A DNA stretch of 64,000 nt from Sphingomonas sp. CL5.1. GTDB taxonomy: Bacteria > Pseudomonadota > Alphaproteobacteria > Sphingomonadales > Sphingomonadaceae. The DNA lies in the NCBI RefSeq assembly GCF_013344685.1, contig NZ_CP050137.1:682001-746000 (forward strand), read 5' to 3'. The notes below the pieces were generated by a model. That model was not told the DNA's origin and did not search any database. It saw only the letters and a list, made by a program, of their open reading frames with translations. This document shows positions 28,729 through 59,459 of the stretch, piece by piece (the stretch's first letter is position 1; every line of letters begins with the position of its first letter). The position numbers and the translations under genes were made by a program.

Positions 28729-28747
28729 AGCACCATAGTGCAATTTT
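28729..28747 (+). promoter_or_regulatory. Operator copy a (AGCAC-CATA-GTGCA-ATTTT)
   Basis: First of the shared 19-bp elements, with the pattern TGCAC-N4-RTGCA plus an A/T pentamer. Its arms are GCAC/GTGC. It lies 29 bases in front of the DUF35 start at 28700, in the control region shared with the P450 gene. Confidence 0.6.
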
Positions 28748-28812
28748 CACGCATTTGTGTGCCTCTATTCGCCGCTGGTTGCAAGCGCCGCGCCGAAATT
28801 TGACGAACGCCG

Positions 28813-28841
28813 TTGACGGGTCCAGCACTAGCCCGTATTTT
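28813..28841 (+). promoter_or_regulatory. Promoter of the P450-ferredoxin pair
   Basis: TTGACG (28813-28818) and TATTTT (28836-28841) are 17 bases apart, a good sigma-70 layout. Operator copy b begins at the last base of the -10 hexamer, so a bound repressor would block RNA polymerase. Confidence 0.6.
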
Positions 28842-28859
28842 TCACTCAAATGCAAAATT
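28841..28859 (+). promoter_or_regulatory. Operator copy b (TTCAC-TCAA-ATGCA-AAATT)
   Basis: Second element in the divergent DUF35/P450 gap. It has one mismatch to the TGCAC left arm and a perfect right arm plus AAATT. It covers the expected transcription start of the P450 gene (ATG at 28879). Confidence 0.65.
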
Positions 28860-28878
28860 GACAGGATGAGGCCAATCC

Positions 28879-30102
28879 ATGCAAGCGACCGCCGCCGTTC
28901 GTCCAAGCCATGTGCCGCCCGAGCTGGTCGGCGGCTTCAACCTGATGGACGACCCCTCGATGCTGCCGCAGCCGCTCGGCGATCCGCACACCGCGATCGC
29001 TCGGCTGCTCGACGGGCCGCCGGTCTTCTACTCGCTCAACATGACCCGCAACGGCGAGGGCGCGTGGATCGTGGTGCGCGCCGAGGACCAGCGCCGCGTG
29101 CTGCAGGACGGCGCGACCTTCTCCAGCAATCGCAACATCTTCTCGTCCGCGCTGGGCGAGAACTGGCCGCTGATCCCGCTGGAGATCGATCCGCCGGAGC
29201 ACGGCAAATGGCGCTCGCTGCTCAACCCCCTGCTCTCCCCGCGCCGCGTGGTGAACCTCGAGCCGATCGTCCGCCAGCGCGCGATCGACCTGATCGAGGG
29301 GATCAAGGCGAAGGGCACGAGCTGCGAGGCGATGAGCGAGTTCGCCTTCCCCTTCGCGGTCAGCATCTTCCTCCAGTTCCTCGGCATCGGCCATGAGCGG
29401 CTGCACGAGTTCGTCGGCTGGGCCAACGACCTGCTGCACGGCACACCGGCACAACGGACCGAGGCGGCGAAGATCGTCGTCGCCTATCTCGACGACCTGC
29501 AGGCGCTGCGCCGCCGCGAGCCGGCCGACGACTTCATGACCTTCGTCACGCAAGCCGAGATCGACGGCCGCCGGATGACCGAGCATGAAGTGAAGTCGAT
29601 GAGCGTGCTGCTGTTCATCGCCGGGCTGGACACGGTGGCGGCGGCGATCGGCTTCGACCTGCTCTATCTCGCGCGGCATCAGGCCGAGCAGGAACTGCTG
29701 CGCGCCGAGCCGAACCGCATCCTGCTCGCCGCCGAGGAGATGCTGCGCGCCTTCCCGACCGTCACGCCGATCCGCCGCGCGACGCGCGACGTGGAGGTGG
29801 CGGGCGTACTCATCAAGGCGGGCGACCTCATCGCCTGCCCGTCGATGACCGCGAACCGCGATCCGGCGGAATTCACCAACCCGGAGAAGATCGACTTCGC
29901 GCGCGAGGACAATCGCCACGTCGCCTTCGCCTATGGCCCGCACCGCTGCCTCGGCTCGCACCTCGCGCGGCGCGAGGTGGTGATCGGGCTGGAGGAATGG
30001 CTGGGGCGGATTCCCACCTTCCGCTTCAAGGAGGGGCATCTGCCGACCGTGTACGGCGGCTTCGTGTTCGGGGTCGAGGATCTGGTGCTGGCGTGGGACT
30101 GA
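28879..30102 (+). CDS. Cytochrome P450
   Basis: The 407-residue soluble bacterial P450 has the heme-binding motif FAYGPHRCLGSHLARRE (axial Cys357), the I-helix FIAGLDTVAA (248-252 AGLDT, with the oxygen-activating D-T pair) and an E287-x-x-R290 pair. It should hydroxylate a hydrophobic substrate using electrons from the [3Fe-4S] ferredoxin encoded 25 bases downstream; the ferredoxin reductase is not nearby. Similarity in motifs to CYP families of terpene and steroid oxidation is noted but not enough to name a family. Confidence 0.94.
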   Translation: MQATAAVRPSHVPPELVGGFNLMDDPSMLPQPLGDPHTAIARLLDGPPVFYSLNMTRNGEGAWIVVRAEDQRRVLQDGATFSSNRNIFSSALGENWPLIPLEIDPPEHGKWRSLLNPLLSPRRVVNLEPIVRQRAIDLIEGIKAKGTSCEAMSEFAFPFAVSIFLQFLGIGHERLHEFVGWANDLLHGTPAQRTEAAKIVVAYLDDLQALRRREPADDFMTFVTQAEIDGRRMTEHEVKSMSVLLFIAGLDTVAAAIGFDLLYLARHQAEQELLRAEPNRILLAAEEMLRAFPTVTPIRRATRDVEVAGVLIKAGDLIACPSMTANRDPAEFTNPEKIDFAREDNRHVAFAYGPHRCLGSHLARREVVIGLEEWLGRIPTFRFKEGHLPTVYGGFVFGVEDLVLAWD

Positions 30103-30127
30103 CGCGGCAAAGCGAGAGGAAAAGACG

Positions 30128-30489: not shown

Positions 30490-33459
30490 TCAGAACTTGA
30501 AGCGCACGCCCGCCGTGAAGGCGCGGCCGACGAAATCGTACACCGCGATATTGGTCGGCAGGTTGACGCCCGGCACGGTGCCGGGGATCAGCGGCGGGTC
30601 CTTGTCGAACAGGTTGTTGATCGTCAGGAACGGCTCGAAGTGCTTGCCCTCCCCGATATCGACCTTCGCGCGCAGCGTGAGGTCGGTGTAGAATACCGCG
30701 CCGACATGATCGTCGACGAAGCTGACGCGGGCGCCGTTCGGCAGCGCGCCCGGAATGTCGAGCCGCATCGAGCCGACCATCTGCTCCGATATCGTCAGGC
30801 CGAAACGGTCGGTGCTGTAATCGGCGGTCAGCGAGCCGCGCCAGCGCGGATAGCCCGCCGGGTTGGAGCCGACCACGTTGACGCCCGCGTAATGCAGCGT
30901 CGGCGCGCCGGCATATTGCTGGGTATCGAACTTGTCGAGGTAGTTGGCGTAGAGCCGCAACGCGAGCCCGCCATTGCCCAGACTGGTGCGATAGGTGGCG
31001 TCGAAGTCGATGCCGGCGGTCTTCAGGAAGGCGATGTTCGCCGGCGCGATACGGATCAACGTCGGGAAGGCAGTAGGCGAACTGCGCGTAATGAGCGCGC
31101 ACTCCGGACCGGTGCCGCCGCTGTTGGTGCAATTGTCGACGATCTGCTGCGCCGAAAGCTGATCGATCAGCGAGTCGACCTTGATCGAATAATAGTCGAC
31201 CGACATGCTGAAGCCCGGCAGGAAGCGCGGCGTCAGCACGGCGCCGATCGTCAGCGTCTTGGCCTTCTCCGGCTTCAGGCCCAGATTGCCGGACGTGACC
31301 GACGAGACGTTCTGGTTGATACCGGAGCCGATCGTGCCGGCGGCGTTCTGCTTGTCGTTGATGATGCCGATCGCCGATTGTGCGCCGCTGTACAGCTCGA
31401 ACAAATTGGGCGCTCGGATGTCACGCGAATAGGTAGCGCGCAGCAGGAAATCCTGCACCAGCTTCCATGTGCCGCCAGCCTTCCAGGTGGTGACCGTGCC
31501 CGAAGTCGAATAATCGGTCACACGGACCGCGCCGTTGAGGCTCAGCTCCTGGAACAGCGGCGCATCCTTGAGGATCGGCACCGCCAGCTCGGCGAAGCCC
31601 TCCTTCACGTTATAGCTGCCGTGGCCCTGGCCGACGTTGGTCAGCCAGTAGAACAATGCGCCGGCCGGCACGCCGCGCAGCCCCGCGAAATAGGCGCTGC
31701 GCTTGGCCGCGGTGTCCAGATCGGCCGGATCGGCGTTGCTGGTGAGATCGAGCGACTGGTTGCGCCATTCGACGCCGGCGGCGAGGTCGACCGGCCCGGC
31801 CGGCAGGTTGAACAGGCTGCCGGAGATGCTGGCGGTGACCGAATCCTGCTTGATCGTCGCGTCGTAGCGCGAGGTGCCGGTGGCATAGGCATAGCCCGCC
31901 GGGGTCGCCGCCGCCGGATTGCCGGCGAGCAGGTTGAGCGGCTGGCAGCCGGCATATTGCGCCGCCACCGTCGGATCGGTCAGCACGCGGCAGGTCGGCA
32001 CGCCGTTCGCCATCACCACGTCGGTCGCGGCGAAGAGCTTCTTGTTATCGTACAGTCCGGAGGTGGCCATATGGTGCACCGACTGGCCGTGGGTGTAGTT
32101 CAGCGACCATTTGAAATCGCCGAAATGGCCGTCGAGCCCGGCGGTCGCCATCCAATAGTCGGTGCGCTCCCGCGCCAGCGGCTGCGGCTGGCCGGCGTCA
32201 TAGGAGCCGACGGTGAGATAATCGTTCGGCCCCGCCAACGTGGCCTGCATCGCGGGCGAGAGATACGGGTTGCCACTGTAGAGATTGACCGCCTCGCTGG
32301 GCGGCACGAGCGCGTTGGTCTGTGTCGGATAGACATAGTCGCTACGGCTGAACAGGCCCTGGACATAGGCGTTGATGCCATCGGACACGTCATAGGACAG
32401 GCGGCCGAACGTGTTGTAGGTCTTGCCGGGGATGATCGCGGCATTCTGCTGCGTGATGCCATAGCCGTCGCCGCCAGACTGGAAACCGGTGGTGCCGACC
32501 GCCGTGCCGGTGTTGAACGGCCGGGTGGTGCCGTCCGGGTTGACCACCTGCCCGATCAACGGATTGGTGAGGGAGCTGGCGCTCGTGATCCGCGCGTTGC
32601 TGGTCAGCGCGGAGATGCGCACGTCGGTGCCGATCGTATAGGGATTGGTCGCCGTGCCCGGCGTGCCGCCGCCGACGACCGAGCCGACATAGTTATAACC
32701 CTTGTTCGAGAAATCGCGATCGGCGCGCTTCATCCCGTCGTTGTTGTTGTATTCGGCGCTGAACTCGATATGGCCGCGACCGCCCGCGAAGCCGGTGCCT
32801 CCGGCAATGCCGATGCGCTGGCTGGCGGCATAGCCGCGCTGCGCCACGCCGGCCTGCGCCACGCCGCTCAACCCGTTGAAATTCTTGTCGAGCACGAAGT
32901 TGACGACGCCCGCCACCGCGTCCGATCCCCAGGCCGCCGACGCGCCGCCGGTGACGACGTCGACGCGCTGCATCAGCAGTTCCGGCAGCACGTTGGTGTC
33001 GATCGTGCCGACATATTCGGTCGGCGAGACGCGCAGGCCGTCGAACAGGATCAGCGTGCGCAGCGGCCCCTTCGGATTGGCGCCGGTGGTGCCGAGGCCG
33101 CGCAGGTTGAGGATGTTGCCGTGGATCGGCAGGTTCGAGAAGTTCGACGCGGCCTTGCTCGGGCTGAGCGAGTTGGCGAATTGCGGCAGCTTGTTGAGCG
33201 CGTCCGGTACGCCCGACGGCGTCGACTTGAGCAGGTCGTCGGTGGTCGCCACGGTGACCGGCGTCGGCGCGGTATAGCCATCGCGCACGATGCGCGTGCC
33301 GGTGACGACGACGTCGGGCGTGGTCTGCGCCGGAGCGGACTGGTCCTGAGCCGCCTGGCCCTGCGCGGCGGCCGGAGCGGGCGCCGTCTCGGCGACGGCG
33401 GGCACGGCGAACGTCAGCGCGCTGGTCGCCATGAGCGCGGCAATGGCACGAACTCTCAT
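30490..33459 (-). CDS. TonB-dependent receptor of the catabolic cluster
   Basis: The 989-residue receptor has a signal peptide (MRVRAIAALMATSALTFAVPAVAE), a proline/glutamine-rich linker, the TonB-box-like PDVVVTGTRIVRDGY, a plug with DALNKLPQF, RGLGTTGANPKGPLRTLILFDGLRVSP and VDVVTGGASAAWGSDAVAGVVNFVLDKNF, and a long barrel ending VRFKF. It belongs to the large carbohydrate/aromatic/terpenoid-type TonB receptors of sphingomonads and is not of the siderophore type. Its promoter carries two operator copies, so its expression follows the other catabolic genes. It probably brings the unknown substrate into the periplasm. Confidence 0.92.
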   Translation of the reverse strand: MRVRAIAALMATSALTFAVPAVAETAPAPAAAQGQAAQDQSAPAQTTPDVVVTGTRIVRDGYTAPTPVTVATTDDLLKSTPSGVPDALNKLPQFANSLSPSKAASNFSNLPIHGNILNLRGLGTTGANPKGPLRTLILFDGLRVSPTEYVGTIDTNVLPELLMQRVDVVTGGASAAWGSDAVAGVVNFVLDKNFNGLSGVAQAGVAQRGYAASQRIGIAGGTGFAGGRGHIEFSAEYNNNDGMKRADRDFSNKGYNYVGSVVGGGTPGTATNPYTIGTDVRISALTSNARITSASSLTNPLIGQVVNPDGTTRPFNTGTAVGTTGFQSGGDGYGITQQNAAIIPGKTYNTFGRLSYDVSDGINAYVQGLFSRSDYVYPTQTNALVPPSEAVNLYSGNPYLSPAMQATLAGPNDYLTVGSYDAGQPQPLARERTDYWMATAGLDGHFGDFKWSLNYTHGQSVHHMATSGLYDNKKLFAATDVVMANGVPTCRVLTDPTVAAQYAGCQPLNLLAGNPAAATPAGYAYATGTSRYDATIKQDSVTASISGSLFNLPAGPVDLAAGVEWRNQSLDLTSNADPADLDTAAKRSAYFAGLRGVPAGALFYWLTNVGQGHGSYNVKEGFAELAVPILKDAPLFQELSLNGAVRVTDYSTSGTVTTWKAGGTWKLVQDFLLRATYSRDIRAPNLFELYSGAQSAIGIINDKQNAAGTIGSGINQNVSSVTSGNLGLKPEKAKTLTIGAVLTPRFLPGFSMSVDYYSIKVDSLIDQLSAQQIVDNCTNSGGTGPECALITRSSPTAFPTLIRIAPANIAFLKTAGIDFDATYRTSLGNGGLALRLYANYLDKFDTQQYAGAPTLHYAGVNVVGSNPAGYPRWRGSLTADYSTDRFGLTISEQMVGSMRLDIPGALPNGARVSFVDDHVGAVFYTDLTLRAKVDIGEGKHFEPFLTINNLFDKDPPLIPGTVPGVNLPTNIAVYDFVGRAFTAGVRFKF

Positions 33460-33567: not shown

Positions 33568-35077
33568 AAGGCTGGACCGCCAGCCCCGTCTCGCGCCGCC
33601 AGCGATCGTACCATGCCGCCATCGCCGCCGGCCTGATGCCCTGCGTCACGCTCATCCGGTCGCGCACCAGCAATGTCTCGTGCGAGCCGGGCGCGGTGCG
33701 CGGCCAGATCACCGGCCCCGCGCCGTTCGGATCGCCGGAACGCAGGAAATTCAGCCACATGCCGCGCCATTCCCGCGCCATCGCGGCGGTGCGCGGATCG
33801 TCCTCCGGCGCGACGCCGAACAGATAGGGCATGTCGGCGCAATGCGGCGCGCCGGGCACGCTCGCTCGCTCGGCCGGCGGCACGAAATCGAAATGATAGC
33901 TCCAAGCCGGCGCGCGGCGCGCCGCCAGCCCCGCCATGCCGAGCGCGGCGGAGGTGAAGATGAAATCAGTCTGCACGCGGCGGATCAGTTCCGCCTCGCT
34001 CAACGGGCCATCGGCTTCGTAGATCGGACGCCACGAGTCGAGGTCGATCCCGAACAGCCGCTTGAGCGTCGGCGCGTCGAAGCCCATCAGCCCGAACACG
34101 CTCGCCTCGTTGCTGGTCGATCCGGCGATGAACGGCACCGGCGCCTGCTCGCCGCGCGCGAAGATCGCCGAGATCGCGTCGGGAACCAATCGCCCGTCGA
34201 CGATCGCGCCGAACGCCGGCGGCCCCGGATCGGCGGCGAGCACCTGCGCGATGCTCAGCCGGCGCAGCGCTGCCAGCCCGGCCGCGCCCGTGTCGGTGAC
34301 GCCCGCGCGCGCCGCGAAGGCCACGCCCTCCGCCTCGGCGCGGTCGAGCGGGCGGGTGGCGTTGAAGAAGCCGCCGCCGGAATGCGCGCTCGCCCGCGCG
34401 AACAGCCCGCGCGCCGCTGGCGATGCCAACAACGCGTTGACGCTCGATCCGCCGGCGGAGCAGCCGAGGATGGTGATATTGTCGGGATCGCCGCCGAACC
34501 GCGCGATGTTGCGCCGCGTCCATTCCAGCGCGCGGAGCTGGTCGGAGAGCCAGAAATTGCCGGTCCCGCGCCCCGCCTCCGCGACGAGCGCGGGATGCGC
34601 GAAGAAGCCGAAGCGGCCGACGCGATAATTGGGCGAGACGAGGATCACCCCGCCGCGCACCAGCGGCGACAGCCCGGCTTCCACCATGTAGCGCCCCGAG
34701 CCGAAGGCATAGGCCCCGCCGTGGATCGAGAACAGCACCGGCAGCCGCTTCGCCGCGCGATCCGGCGTTATGATGCTGAGCGTCAGGCAATCCTCGCTCT
34801 GCGCATGGGCCGGCCGGTTGCCCTCCGGCTTCTGCGGGCAATCGAAGCCGAAGCGCGTCGCGTCGCGGATGCCCTTCCACGGACGAACGGGCAGCGCCTC
34901 GCGCCAGCGCAGCGCGCCCACCGGCGGCAGCGCATAAGGGATGCCGCGCCACGCCGCGCCTTGCTCCAGCGCCACGCCGCGCACCCGCCCGGTGTCGGTG
35001 GTGACGACCGGGCCGGCGTTCGCGGCGAGCAGCACCGCCGCGGCGAGCAGCCCGATCGCCCGCCGCGCCCGCCTCAT
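33566..35077 (-). CDS. Type B carboxylesterase, exported
   Basis: The chosen ATG at 35077 overlaps the stop of the luciferase-like gene (ATGA) and gives 503 residues with a signal peptide (MRRARRAIGLLAAAVLLAANAGPVV). The alpha/beta-hydrolase features are an oxyanion HGG (119-121), the nucleophile S207 in GCSAGGSS and the SEDCLTL motif typical of p-nitrobenzyl-esterase-like enzymes. It should hydrolyse a carboxylic ester in the periplasm. The frame extends further upstream but that part is antisense to the preceding gene. Confidence 0.9.
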   Translation of the reverse strand: MRRARRAIGLLAAAVLLAANAGPVVTTDTGRVRGVALEQGAAWRGIPYALPPVGALRWREALPVRPWKGIRDATRFGFDCPQKPEGNRPAHAQSEDCLTLSIITPDRAAKRLPVLFSIHGGAYAFGSGRYMVEAGLSPLVRGGVILVSPNYRVGRFGFFAHPALVAEAGRGTGNFWLSDQLRALEWTRRNIARFGGDPDNITILGCSAGGSSVNALLASPAARGLFARASAHSGGGFFNATRPLDRAEAEGVAFAARAGVTDTGAAGLAALRRLSIAQVLAADPGPPAFGAIVDGRLVPDAISAIFARGEQAPVPFIAGSTSNEASVFGLMGFDAPTLKRLFGIDLDSWRPIYEADGPLSEAELIRRVQTDFIFTSAALGMAGLAARRAPAWSYHFDFVPPAERASVPGAPHCADMPYLFGVAPEDDPRTAAMAREWRGMWLNFLRSGDPNGAGPVIWPRTAPGSHETLLVRDRMSVTQGIRPAAMAAWYDRWRRETGLAVQP

Positions 35078-36075
35078 TGGTTGAGGTCCACCATCTTCGC
35101 GTCGATCAGGCGCGGCAGCACCTCCTTCTCGAACAGGCGCAGGCTGGCCCAGGACAGATCGGGGTCCAGCCCGCCGAGCAAGGCGTGGAAGTTGATCCCG
35201 GCATTGGCCGGCTGGGTCTTGAGCCAGTCGAAGCACTGGTCCGGCGTCAGCACCTTGATGTTGGGCATCGCCTTCAACGCCTCGACCGTCTCGGCCGCCT
35301 TGTAGAGCGTGTCGCCGGTGCCGCGCTCGGTCGCCCATTGCGCATAGGTGTTGGTGGCATAAGCGACGTGCGGCGCGATGCGCGGCCAGTCGCGATCGGG
35401 ATCGTCGGTGATGTAGAGGAAGCTGGCGATCGACTTGACCAGCGGCTCGGGCGGCGGAAAGCCCAGCTTCGCGCGCTCCTCGGCATAGATGTCCCACAGG
35501 CCGGGATGGCCGGGGAAATATTGATAGCCGCCCTTGGCCGCGCGCAGCGCCGATTTCTCGGTCGATCCGCCCATGTAGATCTTCGGCCCGCCCGGCTGCA
35601 CCCCCGGCGGGGTAACGCGGACGGTGCGCCCGTCATAGTCGAACGGCTCGCCGCCCCACGCCTTCTTCAGCGTGTCGAGCGCCTTGTTCATCAGCCCGAG
35701 CCGCTTGGTGATGTCCTTGCCGAACATCTCGAACTCGTGCGGGCGATAGCCCATGCCGGCGGTGAGCCAGATGCGCCCGTTCGAGATATTGTCGAGCACC
35801 GCGAGGTCCTCGGCCAGCCGCAGCGGATCGTGCATCGTGACGACCAGCGCGGAAAGGTGGACGTTGATCTTCTCCGTCACCGCGAAGATCGACGCGGCCT
35901 GCACCATCGAGGACGGGCAATAGCCGTCCTCCGCGCCGTGATGCTCGGCGAGGAAGACCTGCGTGAAGCCGAGCTTGTCGGCCCATGCCGCCTGCTCGAT
36001 CGCGGTGCGGTAAAGCGCGGGATGCGGCGTCCCGAACCTGGGGCTGTTCATGTCGTAGCGCAGATTGAGCTGCAT
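35074..36075 (-). CDS. Luciferase-like (LLM class) flavin-dependent oxidoreductase
   Basis: The 333-residue TIM-barrel protein starts MQLNLRYDMNSPRFGTP. It has the VFLAEHHGAEDGY motif (E44, H45, H46), LVVTMHDPLRLAEDLAVLDNISNGRIWLTAGMGYRPHEFEMFG and GGPKIYMGGSTEKSALRAA for flavin phosphate binding. The EHH motif is typical of FMN-using alkanal-monooxygenase relatives, and a flavin reductase gene lies in the cluster (48436). The same superfamily also contains F420-dependent enzymes, and F420 genes lie at 59.5-64 kb, so the cofactor is open. It sits 37 bases after the CoA-transferase gene. Confidence 0.88.
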   Translation of the reverse strand: MQLNLRYDMNSPRFGTPHPALYRTAIEQAAWADKLGFTQVFLAEHHGAEDGYCPSSMVQAASIFAVTEKINVHLSALVVTMHDPLRLAEDLAVLDNISNGRIWLTAGMGYRPHEFEMFGKDITKRLGLMNKALDTLKKAWGGEPFDYDGRTVRVTPPGVQPGGPKIYMGGSTEKSALRAAKGGYQYFPGHPGLWDIYAEERAKLGFPPPEPLVKSIASFLYITDDPDRDWPRIAPHVAYATNTYAQWATERGTGDTLYKAAETVEALKAMPNIKVLTPDQCFDWLKTQPANAGINFHALLGGLDPDLSWASLRLFEKEVLPRLIDAKMVDLNQ

Positions 36076-36112
36076 GGCGGTGGCTTTCGCTATGGCCCTG
36101 GGCGCGAACGCC

Positions 36113-38491
36113 TCAGGCGTTGACCTTGGAGGCGATGCGGCCGGTGACGTCGGCGGGCTGGATCGCGATGCGGCGGGCGAGCAGGTCGTCGATCTCGGCA
36201 TCGCCGTAACCGACCTCGGCGAGCAGCGCGCGGGTATGCTCGCCAAGGCGCGGCGCGGGGCCGGCGGCGCGGCCGGGCGTCCTGGAGAGCTGGTTGAACA
36301 GCCCGTATTCGCGGACATGGCCGTACATCGACTGGAAATTCTCGATCACCCGGTTGCTGTCGAGCAGCCAGTCGAACCACAAGGCGTCGTCGATCCACAG
36401 CGTCTCGCAGACGATCTCGGCCGGGGCGCCGGCCGCGTCGAGCGTCGCGAACGCCTCCTCCTTGCCGCGCGCGGCGAACCAGCCGTCGAGCAGCGCCCTC
36501 AGCTCGGCATCGGCACCGTCGCGGTCGCGCACCGTCGGATAGCGCTCGACGAGATCGGGCCGGCCGATCGCGCGGGCCAGCGCGGCGAAGCGATCGTCGG
36601 CGCGGCACGAGACGCAGACCCAGCCGTCCTTGGTGCGATAGATGCGGTCGAGCGCGTTGAACCCCTGCTGCTCGGCATCGGCACGCAGGCCATAGACCGG
36701 CTTCATGTCGGCATCGAGGAAATGCTCGGAGGTGGTCCACAGGCTCGAATGGAGCTGCGGGCATTCGACATATTCCGCCGCGCCGCCCTTCTGGTCGCGG
36801 TTCTCCAGCGCCATCATCACCGCAACGGCGGCGAGGAAGCCGTTGTTGTAATCCTCGTTGCCGAACGCCGAGCGGTTGGGCGTGTTGCCCTTCCCGCCCG
36901 TCTCGTAGAGCAGGCCGACCCAGCCGCTGACCAGCGGCGCGAAGCTCTTGAGCAGCGACTTCGGCCCCCTCGATCCATAGCCGGGCAGGTAGAGGTAGAT
37001 CAGCTTCGGGTTGATCGCCTTCAGCGCCTCGAAGCCGATGCCGAGCTTGTCGGCCTTGCCGGGGCGCAGGTTGTGGGTGACGACATCGGCGGTGGCGACC
37101 AGCCGGCGCGCGGCCTCCAGCCCTTCGGGCGTCTTGAGATCGAGCACCACGTCGCGCTTGCCGCGATTGGCCGCGTCGAACACGTCGGGCAGCGGGCGCA
37201 TCTGGTCGCCGCCCGGCGTCTCGACCTTGATGACGTCCGCGCCGAGATCGTTGAGCAGGCGGCCGCCGAAGCCGACCGCGAAGAAGGAGGAGAAATCCAC
37301 CACGCGCACCCCCTCCAGCGGGCGGTCGATGTCGCGCACCTTCGGGAACGTGGGCGCCGTGCGCCGCGACAGGTCCGCCAGCGCGTCATTGTCCGCCCCG
37401 ATCTCCGGCGCGGGCTTCGGCGTGGCACAGGGCGTGTCGGCGAAGCGGATCGCCGGGGCGGCCTGGTGGATCGTGCCGAAATCCTTGTCCGGCAGCGCGA
37501 TGCGCATCTTCGCGAACTCGACCTGCTCGTCGAGCAGGATCTCGCCCGGCTCCAGCACCGGCAGCGCGGCGACGTCGGCCGCCTGGAACAATTCGATCCA
37601 CTCGGCGCGCGATTTCTTCCTGAACGCGTCGAATATCTCGACGCGCGCGATCTGATATTCGTCCTCCGTCAGCGGCACCGCCATCTCCGGCCCCTTCACC
37701 GCCTGGATGCGATCGCCGAAGCCGAGGATGTCAAACGCCGGCTTGAAGCCGCCCGAGCCGGTGTGGACCTGAAGGAACTTGCCGTCACCGCACTCGAACA
37801 TGCCGGTGACGAGGCGGACGTTGCCGAAGCGGTCGAGCGCGCCCGAATCGCCCTTCTTGATGTAAGAGATGCCGTCTTCCTGCCACCAGTGGTTCATCGG
37901 GCTTTGCGCGAGGAAGGCGTCGAGCAACGAGGCCTCCACCTCCTGCCCCGTGCCGATCGAGCGGCGCGCGCGCACGGCGGCGAGCGCCGAGATCGTCGCG
38001 AGGAACGCCTGCCCGTAATGCAGCGCGGGGTGGCCGAGATACATCGGCCCCGGCCGGTGCGAGCTGCCCTTGTCGACCATCGTGCCGAGCCGCGCGGCGG
38101 CGAGCGATTCGCCATAGGGCCGGCCCGCCAGCGGCGTGTTCCGGCTGTAGGCGGTGAGCGCGCACGACACGAGCGAGGGGAAATCGCGCTCGAGGCTGGC
38201 CGCGTCGAGGCCGAGCGCGCCGGCCTCCGCGTCGGACAGCGAATGGATGATGATATCGGCGCCCTTCAGCAGGCCGCGCAGCTTCTCCGGCTCGGCCGCG
38301 ATATCGAACTCGACGCTGCGCTTGCCGCGATCCCACCCCTTGCGCGTCAGGTCATGGGCGAAGAAGGTGCCGCCGAGCGGCTCGACCTTCACCACGTCCG
38401 CGCCGTGATCGGCCAGCAGCATGGCGGCCATCGCGCCGGGCATGACGGTGGAGGCTTCGACGACGCGCAGGTGCGCGAGCGGTCCGGACAT
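36113..38491 (-). CDS. Tandem-domain CaiB/BaiF CoA-transferase
   Basis: The 792-residue protein holds two class III CoA-transferase domains, residues 1 to about 380 and about 390-792, each opening with the RVVEAST/RVVDFSS and GADVVKVEP/GADVIKVET motifs. Domain 1 keeps the catalytic Asp (D191 in EASLLDAFL). In domain 2 the equivalent position is His581 (VECPQLHSSLW), so domain 2 may be inactive or altered. Such enzymes move CoA between acids, and some are racemases. It is the first gene of the operon with the luciferase-like and esterase genes. Confidence 0.9.
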   Translation of the reverse strand: MSGPLAHLRVVEASTVMPGAMAAMLLADHGADVVKVEPLGGTFFAHDLTRKGWDRGKRSVEFDIAAEPEKLRGLLKGADIIIHSLSDAEAGALGLDAASLERDFPSLVSCALTAYSRNTPLAGRPYGESLAAARLGTMVDKGSSHRPGPMYLGHPALHYGQAFLATISALAAVRARRSIGTGQEVEASLLDAFLAQSPMNHWWQEDGISYIKKGDSGALDRFGNVRLVTGMFECGDGKFLQVHTGSGGFKPAFDILGFGDRIQAVKGPEMAVPLTEDEYQIARVEIFDAFRKKSRAEWIELFQAADVAALPVLEPGEILLDEQVEFAKMRIALPDKDFGTIHQAAPAIRFADTPCATPKPAPEIGADNDALADLSRRTAPTFPKVRDIDRPLEGVRVVDFSSFFAVGFGGRLLNDLGADVIKVETPGGDQMRPLPDVFDAANRGKRDVVLDLKTPEGLEAARRLVATADVVTHNLRPGKADKLGIGFEALKAINPKLIYLYLPGYGSRGPKSLLKSFAPLVSGWVGLLYETGGKGNTPNRSAFGNEDYNNGFLAAVAVMMALENRDQKGGAAEYVECPQLHSSLWTTSEHFLDADMKPVYGLRADAEQQGFNALDRIYRTKDGWVCVSCRADDRFAALARAIGRPDLVERYPTVRDRDGADAELRALLDGWFAARGKEEAFATLDAAGAPAEIVCETLWIDDALWFDWLLDSNRVIENFQSMYGHVREYGLFNQLSRTPGRAAGPAPRLGEHTRALLAEVGYGDAEIDDLLARRIAIQPADVTGRIASKVNA

Positions 38492-38561: not shown

Positions 38562-38589
38562 ATTCAACTAATTTTAGACAGCGGTAAAA

Positions 38590-38608
38590 AATTTTGCATC
38601 CGCGAAAA
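38590..38608 (-). promoter_or_regulatory. Operator half copy f (TTTTC-GCGG-ATGCA-AAATT on the minus strand)
   Basis: The right arm and AAATT tail are perfect on the minus strand but the left arm is poor. It lies 40-58 bases upstream of the TetR gene start at 38648, which would fit autoregulation. Confidence 0.35.
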
Positions 38609-38647: not shown

Positions 38648-39328
38648 GTGAGCAAGCCGCAGGAACCGGAAGGCTATGCCAGCCCCGCGATGCTGGAGCG
38701 CCGCAAGCGCATCCTCGCACAGGCGCGGGCACTGGTTTCCGAGAAGGGCATCGAGGGGTGGAGCCTCGCCGAGCTGGCCGCGCGCGCCGACGTCTCGCGG
38801 CAGACCTTCTATTACGCCTTCGGCGGCAAGGAGGATGTCATCGCCGCCGCGATCCTCGATTATTTCGAGGAATATGAGCGCGTCATCCCGTATCGCGCCG
38901 CGCCCGGCAGCATCGACCGGCTGATCGAGCGCATCGTCGCGATCGGCCACCGCAACCTGACGATCCGCAATTACGTCGCGGCGCTCATCACCATCTATTA
39001 CGGGCGCTCGCCGGAACTGTGGCGGACGATGCACGACGTCTCCTCCCGCCCGCATCAGGCGACGATCGACGCGCTGGCGGCGGCGGGCCAGTTGCAGCCG
39101 TGGGTCGATCCGGCCGCGCTCGCCGAGATGATGGTGGGGCAGACGATCCTGATCGCCAACGCCTGGCTGCAGGGGCGCATCGCGGACGACGCGATGATCG
39201 ACCGCATGGCGCTGGCGGTGCTCACCGAGCTTGCCGGCTCCGCCCGCGAGGAGACACGCGCGCGGACCGAGACGACGATCCGCCGGATCACCGCCGGGGG
39301 TGCGGAGGCCTATATCGCGTCGATCTGA
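38648..39328 (+). CDS. TetR-family regulator
   Basis: A GTG at 38648 with a GGGAGGGAG site gives 226 residues. The N-terminal helix-turn-helix (RRKRILAQARALVSEKGIEGWSLAELAARADVSRQTFYYAFGGKEDVI) is followed by a ligand domain. This regulator is related to the TetR at 44872 along its whole length: both have IRNY at the domain junction and LQPWVDP later. It is divergent from the CoA-transferase operon, with two operator copies between. It probably controls the catabolic genes in response to an acyl-CoA or substrate; ligand unknown. Confidence 0.92.
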   Translation: MSKPQEPEGYASPAMLERRKRILAQARALVSEKGIEGWSLAELAARADVSRQTFYYAFGGKEDVIAAAILDYFEEYERVIPYRAAPGSIDRLIERIVAIGHRNLTIRNYVAALITIYYGRSPELWRTMHDVSSRPHQATIDALAAAGQLQPWVDPAALAEMMVGQTILIANAWLQGRIADDAMIDRMALAVLTELAGSAREETRARTETTIRRITAGGAEAYIASI

Positions 39329-40723: not shown

Positions 40724-41383
40724 ATGCAGCAGTCCCCGATCGAATCGTCCGCCACCGCCGCGCTGAAGCACGCCGCGATGCGGCTGTTCGCCGAGCGCGG
40801 GACCGACGGGGTGACGGTGCGCGAAATCGCGCGCGCGGCGGGGCAGCTCAACCACGGCGCGGTCAGCTATCATTTCGGCGGCAAGGACGCGCTGATCCGG
40901 GCGATCGTCGCCGACGGCGCGCGGATCATCGACCAGCGCCGCAACGCGCGGCTCGACCTGATCGAGGCGGCCGGCGGGCCGTTCACCATCAGCGAGGTGA
41001 TCGACACGATCATCTATCCCTCGCTGGCGGTGTTCGGGCCGGACGAGGAGGAATGCTACCTGCGTTTCATCGCGGTGCTCGGCATGACGCGCCGGACATT
41101 GTTCGACGAGGCGGTCGGCGAGCGGTGGAACGGCGGCTATCAGCGCTGCCTCGCCCATCTGCGCCGGCTGATGCCGCCGATGCCGGCCGCGCAGGCCAAT
41201 CAGCGGCTGGTGTTCGTCGGCGCCTATATCGCGCAGATCCTCGCGTTGCGGCAGACCCGCCTGTCCGACACCAGCCGCGCGCACGCGACCTGGCCGAGCG
41301 AGAGCACGCTGCGCCACCTCACCCACACCGCCGCCGCCATGCTCGAAGCGCCGGGCTTCGCGGCGACCGGGGCGGGCGAGTAG
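40724..41383 (+). CDS. TetR-family regulator (second type)
   Basis: The 219-residue protein has an N-terminal TetR helix-turn-helix (ALKHAAMRLFAERGTDGVTVREIARAAGQLNHGAVSYHFGGKDALI) and a C-terminal domain of the kind that starts FTISEVIDTIIYPSLAVFGPDEEE. It is not closely like the TetR genes at 38648 and 44872. It is divergent from the MFS gene and is the best candidate for binding the TTAAATCG-N3-GGATAA motif found here and at 59409. Confidence 0.92.
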   Translation: MQQSPIESSATAALKHAAMRLFAERGTDGVTVREIARAAGQLNHGAVSYHFGGKDALIRAIVADGARIIDQRRNARLDLIEAAGGPFTISEVIDTIIYPSLAVFGPDEEECYLRFIAVLGMTRRTLFDEAVGERWNGGYQRCLAHLRRLMPPMPAAQANQRLVFVGAYIAQILALRQTRLSDTSRAHATWPSESTLRHLTHTAAAMLEAPGFAATGAGE

Positions 41384-42296: not shown

Positions 42297-42346
42297 GAAA
42301 ATCGCTCTCAACCTGTTTCGCCCTGTGCGCGGGGCAGCCTCATCGT

Positions 42347-42365: not shown

Positions 42366-42391
42366 CCACAAGCCGCCGGACACGTCAATTC

Positions 42392-44871: not shown

Positions 44872-45627
44872 ATGCTGGATCAGGACGACATCGCGGGAAC
44901 CGGACAGGAAGCCGCCGCGGCCAGCGCGGGCAATGCGCGATCCGCCGGCTATTCCAGCCCCTCGATCGTCGCCCGCCGCCACCGCATCCTCGACGAGACG
45001 CGCCGGATGATCGGCGAGGTCGGGCTGACCAATCTCAGCATGGACGACGTGGCGAAGCGCGCGAACGTCGCCAAGCGCACGCTCTACAACGCGTTCCAGA
45101 GCAAGGAGCATCTCGTCGCCTCCGCGATCAGCAAATATATGGAGGCTTACGAGCGCAAGATCCATTATTCCAAAGAGGACGCCACGCTCGACTGGATGCT
45201 CGAGCGCCTCGTCATCGTCGCGCGCCGCAACCTGGAAATCCGCAACTACACCCGCGCGCTGATGAACATCTATCATCTCGCCGAGGTGGACCCGGAGATC
45301 CGCCAGGCGATCCACGACATCGCCGCCCATTCGCACGAGCCGTGGATACGCCGGCTGGCGGCGAAGCGGCAGCTCCAGCCATGGGTCGATCCCGACGATC
45401 TCACCTCGATGCTGGTGCGCTATCGCTACGCCACCGCCCACGCCTGGACGGAGGGCGAGATTCCCGACGAGAACATGGTGGTGGAGGTGGTGCGCGGCTT
45501 CCTGACGGTGATGGCGGGCGCGACGCGCGGGGCGGCGCGCAAGGAGATCGTCGACGCGCTGAACACGCTCGACCAGCATCCGTTGATGAAGGAGCATTTC
45601 GCCGGGATGAGGAAGAAGAAGGGCTGA
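44872..45627 (+). CDS. TetR-family regulator
   Basis: The 251-residue protein has an unstructured N-terminal extension of about 35 residues, then a TetR helix-turn-helix (RRHRILDETRRMIGEVGLTNLSMDDVAKRANVAKRTLYNAFQSKEHLV) and a ligand domain with ARRNLEIRNYTRALMNIYHLAEVDPEIRQAIHD and LQPWVDPDDLTSML. It is homologous to the TetR at 38648. A copy of the shared operator is in front of it. It ends convergent with the aldehyde dehydrogenase gene. Confidence 0.92.
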   Translation: MLDQDDIAGTGQEAAAASAGNARSAGYSSPSIVARRHRILDETRRMIGEVGLTNLSMDDVAKRANVAKRTLYNAFQSKEHLVASAISKYMEAYERKIHYSKEDATLDWMLERLVIVARRNLEIRNYTRALMNIYHLAEVDPEIRQAIHDIAAHSHEPWIRRLAAKRQLQPWVDPDDLTSMLVRYRYATAHAWTEGEIPDENMVVEVVRGFLTVMAGATRGAARKEIVDALNTLDQHPLMKEHFAGMRKKKG

Positions 45628-49880: not shown

Positions 49881-51929
49881 TTATTTCTTCGGCGCGGTTT
49901 CGCGCGCGCGCTGGCGGATATAGTGGCGCAATCCCTCCAGCTCCTCGTCGCTCAGGTTGGCGAAGCGGCCCATCCCGCGATCCATCAGTGCGCCCTCATG
50001 GACGATGCTGTAGAAGGCGTCCTTGTCGAGCGGCACCGCCGACTTGCGCAGGTCCGGCGCGGCGCCGCCGGCGATCATCCCGCCGCCGTGGCAGATCACG
50101 CAGCTCGTGTTGTAGATCGCCGCGCCGATCGCCGCCTTCTTCGGATCGACCACGAAGGCGGGATCGTCGGCGATCTCCTCCGTCACCGGCTCGAACTTCG
50201 GCAGGCTGGCGGTGCCACCGATGCGGAAGGTCAGCACGCGGCGATGCTGCTGGCGGTAATCCCAGTTGGGCTTGTTGGCGAAGCTGGAGCGGAAGCTGGC
50301 GAGCACGGTGACATATTGCACGCCGTCCACCAGATAGCTGATCGGCGCGGAAAGGATGCCGTTCTGCGCGAAGAAGCTCCACAGCTTCGTCCCGTCGCTG
50401 GCGCGATAGGCGATGAGGTCGCCGGTGTTGACGCCCTGGAAGATCACATTGCCGCCGGTCGCCAGCACCCCGCCGTTGAACGTGCCCGGCTGCGGGATCG
50501 ACCATGCCTTGCGCTGCTTCGCCGCGTCCCACGCAACGAGGAAGCTCCTGGACGGCGGCACCGTAATGTCCGGCGGTGGCGCGCCCAGCCCGGTGTTGAC
50601 GAACATCCCGTTGTGGACCTTCCACGTCTTGAGATCGGGATCGATATGGACGCGCCCGCCCTCCATCACCGGGATATAGGTGAGGCCGGTTTTCGGATCG
50701 TGCGCCATCGCCTGCACGCCATGCGCGCCGTTCGGGAAGGGATAGAGGACGAACGGCTTGCCGTTCGGATAGCGCGCCTCGGGATTCTCGACCGGGCGGC
50801 CGGTCGCCATGTCGATCCTGTCGGCCCAGTTGACATGCGCGAACTTCTCGGCGGAGAGCAGCTTCCCGGTCTCGCGATCGATCACATAATAGAAGCCGTT
50901 CTTCGGCGCGTGGAGGATCACCGGGCGCTTGCGGCCATCGACGACCAGATCGGTCAGCTCGATGTCCATCGCGTTGTTGAAGTCCCACGTGTCGCCGGGG
51001 TTGGTCTGGTAATGCCAGGCGTGCTTCCCGGTCTTCGCATCGAGCGCGACGACCGAGGCGAGATAGAGATTGTCGCCGCCGCCGGGCGAGCGGATCTTCT
51101 CGTTCCACGGGAAGCCGTTGCCGGTGCCGATATAGATGCGGTCGTATTTCGCGTCATAGGCCATCGCCTGATAGACCGCGCCGCCGCCGCCGAACTTCCA
51201 CCATTCGCCGGTCCAGGTGGAGGCCGCCTTCTGCGTCGTCTCGTCATGATCGACCGCCGGGTTGCCGGGGACGACATACCAGCGCCACGCCTTCTTGCCG
51301 GTATTGAGATCGTAGGCGGTGACATAGCCGCGCACCGGCGAGTAATCCGCGCCGCCGAAGCCGATCACCACCTTGTCGCCGGCGACGAAGGGCGGGCCGG
51401 TGATATAGCCGCCGGGCGCCTCGTCGAGCGTCTCGACGCTCCACAGCAGCTTGCCGTCCCTCGCATCGACCGCGATCAAACGGCCGTCGCGCGTCCCGGT
51501 GAACACCTTGCCATCACGATAGGCGATGCCGCGAATGCCCCAGCCGGCGCGCATCCGGGTCTGCGCGCCCGGCGATTCCGCCACCTTCGGATCATATTGC
51601 CATAGCAGCTTGCCGGTCTTCGCGTCGAGCGCATGGATCACGCTGTTGCCGGCGGCGAAATAGAGCACGCCGTTCACCGCCAGCGGCGCGGTATAGGCGT
51701 CGAACGTGTCGATGTCGTAATACCAGGCGAGGCCGAGCCGGCCGACGTTGGCATCGGTGATCTGGGTCAATGGGCTGTAATGCTGCTCGCTGTCGTCGCC
51801 GCCGAAGCTGAACCAGTCGCGCCCCTCGACCGGGCCGCCGCCAGGGGCCGCCCCGCTCTGTGCCGCCACGGCCGCCAGCAACGCGGCGGCGCCCGCCAGA
51901 AGCGTGGCGCGCCCAAGAAAACTGCCCAT
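49881..51929 (-). CDS. PQQ-dependent quinohaemoprotein dehydrogenase, secreted, lacking vicinal cysteines
   Basis: The ATG at 51929 (5-base spacing from GGAAGG) gives 682 residues with a signal peptide, an eight-bladed PQQ propeller and a C-terminal cytochrome c with C610-x2-C613-H614 and a likely Met653 ligand. GTGN (Asn271) and the catalytic Asp316 (NPGDTWDFN) match alcohol dehydrogenases. Asn318 two residues later, not Asp, argues for calcium rather than lanthanide. Two features differ from known enzymes: the vicinal Cys-Cys position reads AGWGIRG (128-134), and the metal-binding GAE reads GAD (Asp195). It should oxidise an alcohol in the periplasm and pass electrons to its heme. Confidence 0.92.
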   Translation of the reverse strand: MGSFLGRATLLAGAAALLAAVAAQSGAAPGGGPVEGRDWFSFGGDDSEQHYSPLTQITDANVGRLGLAWYYDIDTFDAYTAPLAVNGVLYFAAGNSVIHALDAKTGKLLWQYDPKVAESPGAQTRMRAGWGIRGIAYRDGKVFTGTRDGRLIAVDARDGKLLWSVETLDEAPGGYITGPPFVAGDKVVIGFGGADYSPVRGYVTAYDLNTGKKAWRWYVVPGNPAVDHDETTQKAASTWTGEWWKFGGGGAVYQAMAYDAKYDRIYIGTGNGFPWNEKIRSPGGGDNLYLASVVALDAKTGKHAWHYQTNPGDTWDFNNAMDIELTDLVVDGRKRPVILHAPKNGFYYVIDRETGKLLSAEKFAHVNWADRIDMATGRPVENPEARYPNGKPFVLYPFPNGAHGVQAMAHDPKTGLTYIPVMEGGRVHIDPDLKTWKVHNGMFVNTGLGAPPPDITVPPSRSFLVAWDAAKQRKAWSIPQPGTFNGGVLATGGNVIFQGVNTGDLIAYRASDGTKLWSFFAQNGILSAPISYLVDGVQYVTVLASFRSSFANKPNWDYRQQHRRVLTFRIGGTASLPKFEPVTEEIADDPAFVVDPKKAAIGAAIYNTSCVICHGGGMIAGGAAPDLRKSAVPLDKDAFYSIVHEGALMDRGMGRFANLSDEELEGLRHYIRQRARETAPKK

Positions 51930-51981
51930 CTGCACCTTCCCGAACTATGATTGCCGGGCGCGTGTTCGCGCTCCGCATAAA

Positions 51982-52000
51982 TGCACGATGGTGCAATTTT
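51982..52000 (+). promoter_or_regulatory. Operator copy j (TGCAC-GATG-GTGCA-ATTTT), best copy
   Basis: Both arms are perfect (TGCAC/GTGCA). It lies 53-71 bases upstream of the PQQ dehydrogenase start and near the Tat-signal NTF2 gene. On the minus strand TTGACT (52008-52013) is just upstream and may be the -35. Confidence 0.7.
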
Positions 52001-57573: not shown

Positions 57574-57592
57574 CGCCTGTCCTCTCGCAATC

Positions 57593-58333
57593 CTAAAGCG
57601 TGACGCCGCCATCGACGACGAGCGTCTGGCCGCACATGAAGCCGGCCAGCGGCGAGGCGAGGAACAGCGCGACATTGGCCATGTCCTCCACCGTGCCGAA
57701 ACGGCCGAGCGGGATGCGGGAGAGCGCGCCGGCGCGGCGCTCCGCATTGTCCATCGTCACCTTGGTCATCTTGGTATCGACCAGGCTAGGCGCGATGCCG
57801 TTGACCCGGATGCCGGCCCCCGCCCAGGCCAACGCCAGCGTGCGGACGAGCTGCACCGCGGCCGCCTTGGACGCGGCATAAGCGGGGTTGCCGAACGTCG
57901 CCTTGAACGCGCCGATCGAGCTGATGACGATCACGCTGCCCTTCGCCTCGGCCAGCGCGTCGTGGAAACGCTGCGAAATCTGCATCACGCTGGCGACGTT
58001 CACCGCCATCACCTTGTCGAAGCCGGCGCGCTCGAACTCCTGCCTCTTGTAGAGCACCATGCCCTGCGAATGGACCAGCACGTCCAGCCCGTCCGGGAAG
58101 GGATCGGGCGCGGCGGCGATCGCGGCGGGGTCGGCAACGTCGACCTGCGTATAGCCGAGGCCAGCGAGGTCCGATCCTTCGGCCGCGTCATAATCGTCCG
58201 GGCCGGCGCGCGTACCCCAGACATGGACCCGCGCGCCCTTCGCGCGGAACGCCTGCGCGATGCCGTTGCCGATCCCGCTCGATCCGCCGACCACCAGCAC
58301 GCGCTTGCCGCTGAAATCGAGTTCGCCCGTCAT
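57593..58333 (-). CDS. Short-chain dehydrogenase
   Basis: The 246-residue SDR has [11 protein letters not shown] for NAD(P) binding, VHSQGM in place of the usual NNAG motif, the serine pair VISSIG and YAASKAAA (YxxxK). In the levulinate pathway LvaD reduces the 4-oxo group; an SDR between kinase and dehydrogenase genes here suggests a similar 4-oxo/4-hydroxy step. It overlaps the kinase stop (ATGA) and is followed by the dehydrogenase gene. Confidence 0.9.
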
Positions 58334-59397
58334 GCCTGCTCCCTTTCGACGCGGAAAGCGCCCTCGTTTATCCAGCGCCCGGCGCGCGCCAGCAGCCAGC
58401 GGCTGCGCGCATGGAGCCGATCGCCCACGTCGCGCGCCGCCTTGCCGGCGCAGGCGCGCGCATAGGTCCCTTCCAGCAGGATCGCGAACTTGTAGCAGGC
58501 GAACACGGCGTACCAGTCCATCCGCGCCAGCGAGCGGCGCGAGCGCGCGGCATAATGCGCGACCAGCTCCGCGCCGGTCGGGAAGCCGTTCCACGGCGCG
58601 ATGTCGAGCATCCCGCCGTCCGCTTCCTCCGGCCAGGTCGACAGCATCCAGCCGAGATCGATCAGCGGGTCGCCGATCGTCGCCAGCTCCCAGTCGATGA
58701 TCGCGGCAAGCTCCGGCGCGTCATGGCGGTACATGACGTTGGCGAGATGATAGTCGCCGTGGAGGATGCCGGCGGTGAAGCTGGCGGGGCGGTTGGCCTC
58801 CAGCCAGCGGGCGACGCCGGCGACGTCGCCCAGCTCGTCGCGCCCCGGCCAGCCGGCCAGTTCGCCATAGCTGTCGAGCTGCGCCTGCCAGCGCGCGACC
58901 TGCCGCTCGAGGAAGCCCTCCACCTTGCCGAAATCGCCAAGCCCGGCAGCGACATGATCGACCGCGTGGAGCGCCGCCAGCCCCTCGACCAACGCGAAGC
59001 CCATGCGGCGCTGGGCCGCCGCGCCGTGGTGGCTTTCGGGCAGGCCGTTGACCGGATTGAACCCGTCGACCGGCTCCATGAGATAGAAAGCCGCGCCCAG
59101 CACATGTTCGTCGCCGCAGGCGGCGATCAGCGCGGGATGCGGCACGTCGCTGCCGGCCAGCGCGCCCAGCACGCGCGCCTCGCGCCGCATCGTCTCGTTG
59201 CTGTTGGCGCGCAGGTGGAGCGGCGGGCGGCGCAGCACGAAGGCGCGGCCGCCGCGCTCGAATCGCGCCAGCACGTTCTGGCTGCCGCCGGAGAGAAGCT
59301 CCAGCCGCTCGATCGGGCCGGCCGAAAGCCCCTCTCCATCCATCCATGCCGTCAGCGCGGCCTTGTCGACCCCGGCGGCTTCGCGTTCCTCGCCCAT
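58330..59397 (-). CDS. APH-family kinase, probably acting on 4-hydroxyacyl-CoA (LvaA/ACAD10-11-kinase-like)
   Basis: The 355-residue protein kinase-like fold has the catalytic loop LHGDYHLANVMY (H213, D215, N220) and the metal-binding IIDWELATIGDPLIDLGW (D235, E237). It starts MGEEREAAGVDKAALTAWMDG. It is of the ACAD10/11-associated APH group, not the antibiotic type. First gene of the operon kinase-SDR-acyl-CoA dehydrogenase-acyl-CoA synthetase-PQQ dehydrogenase, with all but one boundary overlapping or within 20 bases. Substrate inferred from LvaA. Confidence 0.9.
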   Translation of the reverse strand: MGEEREAAGVDKAALTAWMDGEGLSAGPIERLELLSGGSQNVLARFERGGRAFVLRRPPLHLRANSNETMRREARVLGALAGSDVPHPALIAACGDEHVLGAAFYLMEPVDGFNPVNGLPESHHGAAAQRRMGFALVEGLAALHAVDHVAAGLGDFGKVEGFLERQVARWQAQLDSYGELAGWPGRDELGDVAGVARWLEANRPASFTAGILHGDYHLANVMYRHDAPELAAIIDWELATIGDPLIDLGWMLSTWPEEADGGMLDIAPWNGFPTGAELVAHYAARSRRSLARMDWYAVFACYKFAILLEGTYARACAGKAARDVGDRLHARSRWLLARAGRWINEGAFRVEREQA

Positions 59398-59408
59398 GTC
59401 ACACCTGA

Positions 59409-59425
59409 TTAAATCGCTTGGATAA
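59409..59425. promoter_or_regulatory. Second shared motif, copy 2 (TTAAATCGCTTGGATAA)
   Basis: Matches the element at 40697-40713 except in the 3-base core. It lies 12 bases in front of the kinase start and overlaps the proposed -10 hexamer of its promoter (CATTAT on the minus strand, 59422-59427). Confidence 0.5.
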
Positions 59426-59440
59426 TGCCCTTGACGTTTC

Positions 59441-59459
59441 TGCATTGCAATGCAATTTT
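59441..59459 (+). promoter_or_regulatory. Operator copy k (TGCAT-TGCA-ATGCA-ATTTT), 14-bp perfect palindrome
   Basis: TGCATTGCAATGCA is a perfect 14-base palindrome followed by ATTTT. The minus-strand promoter of the kinase operon, TTGCAA (59445-59450) to CATTAT (59422-59427) with 17 bases between, has its -35 inside it. The element is also about 80 bases upstream of the F420 operon start on the plus strand. Confidence 0.7.

Follow-up and report, generated by a model that had tools for sequence, protein, structure and literature searches.

What controls the catabolic region of Sphingomonas sp. CL5.1, and does this control include the adjoining operon for coenzyme F420, a rare redox cofactor? 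The window, by which we mean the whole stretch of 64,000 nt analysed (NZ_CP050137.1, positions 682,001-746,000, from a genome of 4.57 Mb), carries ten well-scoring copies of a 24-bp dyad operator, one of them in front of the F420 operon. We think it probable that a local repressor of the TetR family, TetR3 (44872-45627), couples F420 synthesis to the catabolic regulon via this dyad. Support comes from the distribution of the sites, their conservation together with TetR3, their placement at promoters and the co-occurrence with F420 genes.

The operator

A previous reading of this DNA from its letters alone (the sequence-only reading) had described eleven copies of a 19-bp operator, TGCAC-N4-RTGCA plus an A/T tail. 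The motif is real, but its shape is a different one. The alignment of 85 non-redundant sites, window included, gives the 24-bp dyad AAWWYTGCAC-N4-GTGCARWWTT, the left half of which emerged unprompted from an alignment of right-half sites. In the window copies the left half is degraded, and RTGCAAAATT or RTGCAATTTT is mainly the conspicuous part. At some promoters a second half-type, TRNCC (TGAACC, TATCC, TAACC), stands in for TGCAC, and a hybrid operator, AATTTGAACC..GTGCAAAATT, is kept at the CoA-transferase promoters of many relatives.

Of the 19-bp element, the A/T-flanked right half is robust; the core is too loose and in part wrong. Strict TGCAC-N4-RTGCA was rejected as the element since it has a single copy in the window (51982); it occurs at three places in the genome. 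With one mismatch it gives 16 strand-wise matches in the window (chance mean 6.1, standard deviation 3.3) and lies also inside genes at 24536, 44464 and 46571, so that, for this loose form, the claim of coding DNA free of copies does not hold. RTGCARWWTT occurs 38 times genome-wide (9 times for the reversed-pattern control), with 11 copies in the window between 28738 and 59459 (binomial p about 1e-15, likewise post hoc); one of these, at 57985, lies outside the gaps listed earlier and is not proposed as a site. RTGCAAAATT and RTGCAATTTT together have 11 copies in the genome, 8 of them in the 31-kb region (binomial p 6.8e-16, again post hoc, the pattern having been taken from the window).

For comparison we used 41 named genome loci chosen for a homologue of TetR3, mostly from Sphingomonas, Sphingobium, Novosphingobium and Croceicoccus, with outliers including Emcibacter, Niveispirillum and Luteimonas (L and G numbers denote loci and genomes). 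RTGCARWWTT has 97 copies in these loci, whereas ten control patterns with a similar composition have 0-33 (mean 11.9). In an unguided count of 6-mer dyads in 39 loci, TTGCAC and CTGCAC with a spacing of 4 are among the 30 top rows and have near-zero counts at other spacings; GC-rich words and others rank above them, and this count alone is therefore no proof. A 24-bp matrix was built from 73 sites of the relatives, with the window and its near-identical relative L047 left out. It gives ten window sites 22.3-32.2 bits, against a maximum of 16.6 bits in 20 x 64 kb of random sequence. The candidate operators are:

28724-28747, plus strand: operator between a thiolase-like gene (minus) and the cytochrome P450 gene (plus), 30.2 bits
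28836-28859, plus strand: operator in the P450 promoter, overlapping the -10 (TTGACG-17-TATTTT, at 28813), 29.1 bits
33508-33531, plus strand: operator upstream of the TonB receptor gene, 25.2 bits
33544-33567, plus strand: second operator in the same upstream region, 22.3 bits
38538-38561, minus strand: operator in the gap between the CoA-transferase (minus) and TetR1 (plus) genes, 23.5 bits
38570-38593, no strand assigned: operator variant without GTGCA in the CoA-transferase/TetR1 gap, 23.7 bits
42342-42365, plus strand: operator covering the -10 in the promoter of the enoyl-CoA hydratase gene (minus; TTGACG-17-AATTTT on the minus strand), 23.8 bits
42387-42410, plus strand: hybrid operator (TATCC / GTGCA) before the acyl-CoA dehydrogenase operon (plus), 24.1 bits
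44810-44833, plus strand: weak candidate operator before TetR3, 14.2 bits, inside the random range
51977-52000, plus strand: best operator, in the gap between a pyrroloquinoline quinone (PQQ) dehydrogenase gene (minus) and a SnoaL gene (plus), 32.2 bits, also the top match in the genome of model R1 (see below)
59436-59459, plus strand: operator of the F420 operon, overlapping the -10 (TTGACG-17-AATTTT, at 59431), 25.6 bits

Elements are thus present at all eleven coordinates of the sequence-only reading, and the matrix backs nine of them; the half-site at 38590 is superseded by the variant at 38570-38593 and the copy at 44815 is weak. A near-identical variant of the hybrid at 42387 is found in L080. 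Two sites beyond the window end, C1:748171 (31.4 bits) and C1:749709 (25.1 bits), show that the regulon extends further. They precede another CaiB-type CoA-transferase gene (L114:2866-4104, minus) and a zinc-dehydrogenase-like gene (L114:5645-4194, minus) that has a cytochrome c gene after it. A third site there, L114:11084, is inside a gene and near random level (17.2 bits).

The regulon in related genomes

A site of at least 17 bits is present in 39 of the 41 related loci, the exceptions being L081 and L085. At the same threshold, 39 loci (L047, L055 and the window excluded) contain 128 sites, 126 of them outside gene interiors, and their reversed sequence contains none. In the per-gene tally of these loci the sites belong to operon leaders (CaiB 22/25, PQQ-ADH 22/26, ACD1 10/11, ECHb 7/7, ECH 27/36) and are missing at genes that usually follow (LLM 0/18, FlavRed 0/23); unclustered other genes have them in 13 of 188 cases. 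The same operons are led by the operator across Sphingomonadales.

The targets in the window are the thiolase/P450 pair, the TonB receptor, the CoA-transferase with the luciferase-like monooxygenase, the hydratase and acyl-CoA dehydrogenases, one PQQ dehydrogenase with SnoaL, and the F420 operon. The idea of one regulon is supported for P450, TonB receptor, CoA-transferase and acyl-CoA dehydrogenases, but of the two PQQ dehydrogenase genes just that at 49881-51935 has a promoter site; near the other, at 54929, none is close by among the 40 best-scoring window places. Six stretches of viral contigs contain the exact ideal dyad, which we take as chance, and plasmids gave two distant homologues only. 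As far as sequence comparison can tell, this is a new TetR regulon in which a conserved operator tracks one regulator.

The regulator

Three TetR-type genes lie in the window:

38648-39328, plus strand: TetR1, diverged paralogue of TetR3 (PF00440; 37% identity to TetR3; helix VSRQTFYYAFGG)
40724-41383, plus strand: TetR2 (PF00440), relatives of which lead the F420 operon in other genomes
44872-45627, plus strand: TetR3, proposed repressor (PF00440, 1.2e-14, 54.2 bits, cut-off 24; helix VAKRTLYNAFQS)

TetR3 has the N-terminal TetR_N helix-turn-helix (HTH), the all-helical fold with a C-terminal ligand/dimer domain and the candidate dyad operator at its targets that define the TetR family. Its AlphaFold2 model (mean predicted local distance difference test score 85.6) consists of helices, with no strands of at least 3 residues. 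TetR-family proteins are on top of the fold matches, AvaR1 being the best, followed by others including KstR and acyl-CoA-bound TtFadR; by sequence profile, Mce3R and KstR are nearest. The helix core KRT[LI]YNAF is present in 40 of 47 clustered TetR sequences from 42 loci, partly through selection, since it was one of two peptide patterns used in the locus search.

The operator follows TetR3 also at the level of whole genomes. R1, an operator model built from sites of carrier genomes, matched 37 of 42 TetR3 genomes (176 hits, 0.97 per Mb, best E 0.008) and 8 of 38 non-carriers (13 hits, 0.11 per Mb, best E 0.19; Mann-Whitney p 2.4e-11); one dyad may be counted on both strands. The sequence-only reading had named the TetR proteins at 38648 and 44872 together as binders. 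A TetR binder is indeed suggested, and TetR3 appears to fit best, whereas the protein at 38648 has a diverged recognition helix and that at 40724 is an unlikely candidate.

TetR1 might nevertheless bind, either alone or by sharing sites with its paralogue and preferring modified ones in its own gap. It is homologous to TetR3, two sites flank it, and its gap holds strongly deviant half-sites in the window, L052 and L053. However, the five TetR1-type paralogues read VSRQTFYYAFG or VAKQTLYYAFG at the recognition helix; within the 42 loci, window included, such copies occur in 5, operators by contrast in 39 of the 41 related ones, and many clusters contain TetR3 alone. We thus regard a role of TetR1 as unlikely. 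Homologues with VAQRTLY[YN]AF in three family genomes have no half-motif within 1.5 kb, a weak result, as the stretch of TetR3 itself (L041) likewise has none under the strict pattern.

Sphingomonas lycopersici (L048:9716-10717) has a TetR3 that is 81% identical to that of the window, and a 22.8-bit operator lies close to where the gene starts. No fbiC match was obtained in this genome, and most catabolic genes are absent from the 20-kb locus, so that this may be an orphaned regulator. In Sphingobium faniae (L059:9995-10735) TetR3 is called as two adjacent open frames and may be interrupted; operators remain in the locus.

Placement at promoters and proposed mechanism

The repressor-type placement put forward by the sequence-only reading is supported, as the spacing from the -35 box often brings the -10 into the operator or beside it. 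Around 93 operators, at a distance of up to 70 bp, TTGAC was observed 70 times, at 51 sites, compared with 13.75 expected at random places. It peaks at -25 and at -35 to -39 from the operator centre, and 37 of the 70 begin 17-49 bp before the centre, which puts a 17-bp-spaced -10 in the operator or adjoining it. Repression by occlusion consequently fits many, though not all, promoters. Another 12 of the 70 begin 9-16 bp after the centre, for example at 42387 and in some TetR3-ECH gaps, and at such promoters TetR3 could bind the dyad as an activator or with dual action. Since 37 of 70 set the -10 or start in or beside the operator, and activators are rare among TetR proteins, this reading is unlikely.

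For repression by TetR3, we propose the following sequence of events. A TetR3 homodimer would bind the 24-bp dyad, with the recognition helix of each subunit (VAKRTLYNAFQ) reading one TGCAC half or the weaker TRNCC variant, and a conserved basic arm (YSSPxIxxRRxRIL) may contact the flanking A/T tract. Because many sites overlap or border the -10 and the start region, the apo-protein would block RNA polymerase. TetR3 would then be released by an intermediate of the pathway, probably an acyl-CoA or another hydrophobic product. Release would jointly induce uptake through the TonB receptor, P450, CoA-transferase/luciferase-like monooxygenase, beta-oxidation, PQQ dehydrogenase and F420 biosynthesis (fbiC-npdG-cofE-cofD-cofC), with F420 presumably serving this same pathway. 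The CYP101-like P450 gives a hint of terpenoid-like substrates.

The link to coenzyme F420

The end of the window contains the F420 genes:

59536-61914, plus strand: fbiC (CofG-CofH fusion, FO synthase; Radical_SAM, CofH_C), start codon uncertain
61907-62584, plus strand: npdG-like NADPH:F420 reductase gene (PF03807), clustering with an L085 protein that NCBIfam names npdG
62374-63348, plus strand: cofE, F420-0:glutamyl ligase (PF01996, 9.5e-77), leftmost start
63081-64000, plus strand: cofD (TIGR01819), leftmost start, running past the window to C1:746286, followed by cofC (PF01983)

The operon order is fbiC-npdG-cofE-cofD-cofC, with fbiC, cofC, cofD and cofE all present and co-directional. 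The nearest relative has a 96% identical fbiC; the copy of the L080 genome is 70% identical and matches NCBIfam CofGH.

An fbiC gene was found in 39 of 41 TetR3 genomes, compared with 19 of 149 family genomes; the two without are S. lycopersici and a metagenome-assembled genome (MAG) with a near-identical locus; in both, TetR3 is kept but most of these neighbours are missing within 10 kb. We scanned 30 fbiC loci of carriers, one per genome, from the 39 genomes with fbiC (9 genomes left out). A site of at least 16 bits lies upstream of fbiC in 23 of the 30 (reversed-sequence maximum 11.8), as against just one of the 17 fbiC loci from 13 TetR3-less genomes; G017, counted among these 13, has a weak TetR3-like match (2.4e-27). 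The fbiC locus of L126 has two further sites downstream. Relatives of TetR3 adjoin F420 genes themselves: fbiC/npdG in L080, npdG in L085 and cofC-cofD in L054. The F420 operon, which the sequence-only reading had included as a possibility, is now, with its 25.6-bit site at 59436, among the best-supported members, and sequence comparison strongly supports this unexpected link.

The sites might also be a shared promoter element or those of a global regulator, linked to TetR3 only through co-inherited clusters; clusters are indeed partly inherited as blocks, and the sites overlap promoters. A general element should however not be so rare (38 half-motifs in 4.57 Mb), nor be missing by fbiC at 16 of 17 loci of TetR3-less genomes, and the sites accompany TetR3 across differing gene orders, which makes this explanation quite improbable. 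TetR2, whose gene stands first in the F420 operon of many genomes and has the operator overlapping its start, was rejected as binder and is the most improbable regulator, because eight genomes with R1 hits have no TetR2 at E<=1e-15 (G152, G153, G159, G160, G169, G170, G188, G189; some are incomplete MAGs, and G160, G169 and G188 have only 1-2 hits, near chance) and strong TetR2 homologues without a TetR1/3 relative in the genome have no site within 1.5 kb (L180, L184, L192).

Where the F420 operon starts with a TetR2-type gene in L118 (682-1443) and L138 (640-1380), its likely ATG falls within the operator, some 7 nt downstream of a -10 with 17-bp spacing, so that the message may be leaderless. 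In L200 (G023, 14044-17823) a TetR2 homologue has as neighbours genes related to the APH-like kinase (58330) and the acyl-CoA dehydrogenase (56350) of the window; the sole site of at least 15 bits in this 20-kb stretch is about 10 kb off (4339), and this is possibly a separate TetR2 module.

Several observations weigh against a TetR3 repressor that couples F420 synthesis to catabolism. A site at the gene's own start is present for only 15 of the 42 TetR1/3 genes, and that of the window's TetR3 is weak (14.2 bits). Seven of the 30 fbiC loci in TetR3 genomes have no site, two of the 23 positive ones reach only 16.1 and 16.6 bits, not above the random maximum, and G114 has a 21.4-bit site by fbiC without TetR3. 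In an unselected family draw, 6 genomes combine a TetR1/3 relative with fbiC, and only 3 of them (G000, G084 and G143; not G011, G022 and G133) have a site beside the latter gene. Five TetR3 genomes gave no R1 hit (G150, G156, G157, G184, G187). At promoters, 42 of the 93 operators lack a TTGAC at up to 70 bp distance, coding DNA is part of the random TTGAC baseline, and operators such as 42387 and those of several TetR3-ECH gaps end just upstream of the -35, which does not by itself suit repression. The conservation of the TetR3 helix is partly selected, as the loci were found partly with KRT[LI]YNAF; the matrix is not wholly independent, as its training sites were found with the half-pattern first seen in the window; and R1 favours carriers by its construction. 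With per-genome E values of 0.008-1, isolated single R1 hits prove little, and carriers are kin to one another while the p-values assume independence.

Other genes of the region

The remaining genes with an assigned function in or near the regulon are:

28879-30102, plus strand: CYP101-like P450 (PF00067), nearest solved structure P450cam-like, further down CYP101J2/D
30490-33459, minus strand: TonB-dependent receptor (PF00593, PF07715)
35074-36318, minus strand: luciferase-like monooxygenase (PF00296), leftmost start, overlapping the CoA-transferase frame
36113-38491, minus strand: two-domain CaiB-type CoA-transferase (PF02515, two stretches)
41394-42297, minus strand: enoyl-CoA hydratase (PF00378), start 42297 inferred
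42472-43674, plus strand: acyl-CoA dehydrogenase 1 (PF02770/02771/00441), start inferred
49881-51935, minus strand: PQQ dehydrogenase with cytochrome c domain (PF01011, PF13442)

A small ferredoxin of the 4Fe-4S type follows the P450 (28879-30325); CYP101 ferredoxins are usually of the 2Fe-2S kind. The CoA-transferase has about 790 amino acids with two CaiB matches, and in many relatives its gene adjoins the luciferase-like one. Nine luciferase-like matches were found genome-wide. The one at 35074-36318 may depend on either F420 or FMN: the best NCBIfam match, TIGR03619 (F420), is below cut-off and the best PDB matches are alkanal monooxygenases, which use flavin mononucleotide (FMN); a flavin reductase in 23 of 41 related loci argues for FMN in the luciferase-like enzyme of the cluster. 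A search of the own genome with PF04075 gave no match, and neither did the control search.

Comparison with known systems

The TetR repressors KstR and Mce3R of Mycobacterium, which act in cholesterol catabolism, resemble TetR3, as proposed here, in that they are set over a large catabolic regulon. The profile match is mostly to the HTH (about 95 N-terminal positions), and phylum and pathway differ. The KstR operator is reportedly TnnAACnnGTTnnA, which differs from the dyad described here, and F420 genes are not known to be in the KstR regulon. PsrA recognises the half-site GTTT/AAAC. The proteobacterial TetR proteins PsrA, FadP and LiuQ control genes of acyl-CoA catabolism through dyads of 15-25 nt, much as is proposed for TetR3; the portion of their account available to us contains no such motif and no F420 genes (PMC5343134). 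Nearer in taxonomy is EdcR, the TetR estrogen repressor of Caenibius tardaugens with the operator TnnCnnTACnAnTnGTAnnGnnA; it is described as a sphingomonad TetR that represses catabolic operons, with the operator over the -10 (PMC8700777). EdcR was rejected as the same system, its palindrome having no window match at up to 2 mismatches, and so was PheR, which is an IclR protein. The F420 operons of Actinobacteria and Proteobacteria contain the same fbiC, cofC, cofD, cofE and npdG, as far as the consulted sections of a 2021 review go (PMC8498797); the operon here differs in that a local TetR regulon would unite it with a catabolic cluster.

Meaning for sphingomonads

Why Proteobacteria make F420 is, in the same sections of that review, an unanswered question (PMC8498797). 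F420 biosynthesis genes have been noted in Novosphingobium (PMC13318209) and Sinorhizobium meliloti (PMC8407117), and the portions of these accounts available to us mention no regulator of them. Our full-text search of the literature, limited to the text it could reach, gave no recognised description of this operator or of a regulator of F420 synthesis in Proteobacteria. We consider it rather likely, on balance, that Sphingomonadales and some other Proteobacteria make F420 as needed, as an inducible catabolic cofactor, with one TetR repressor coupling the entire F420 operon to a catabolic regulon via the common 24-bp operator. Sharing of this operator by F420 genes and the catabolic cluster may thus help to explain F420 production in such bacteria, and the operator may serve as a marker for finding more F420-linked catabolic genes.

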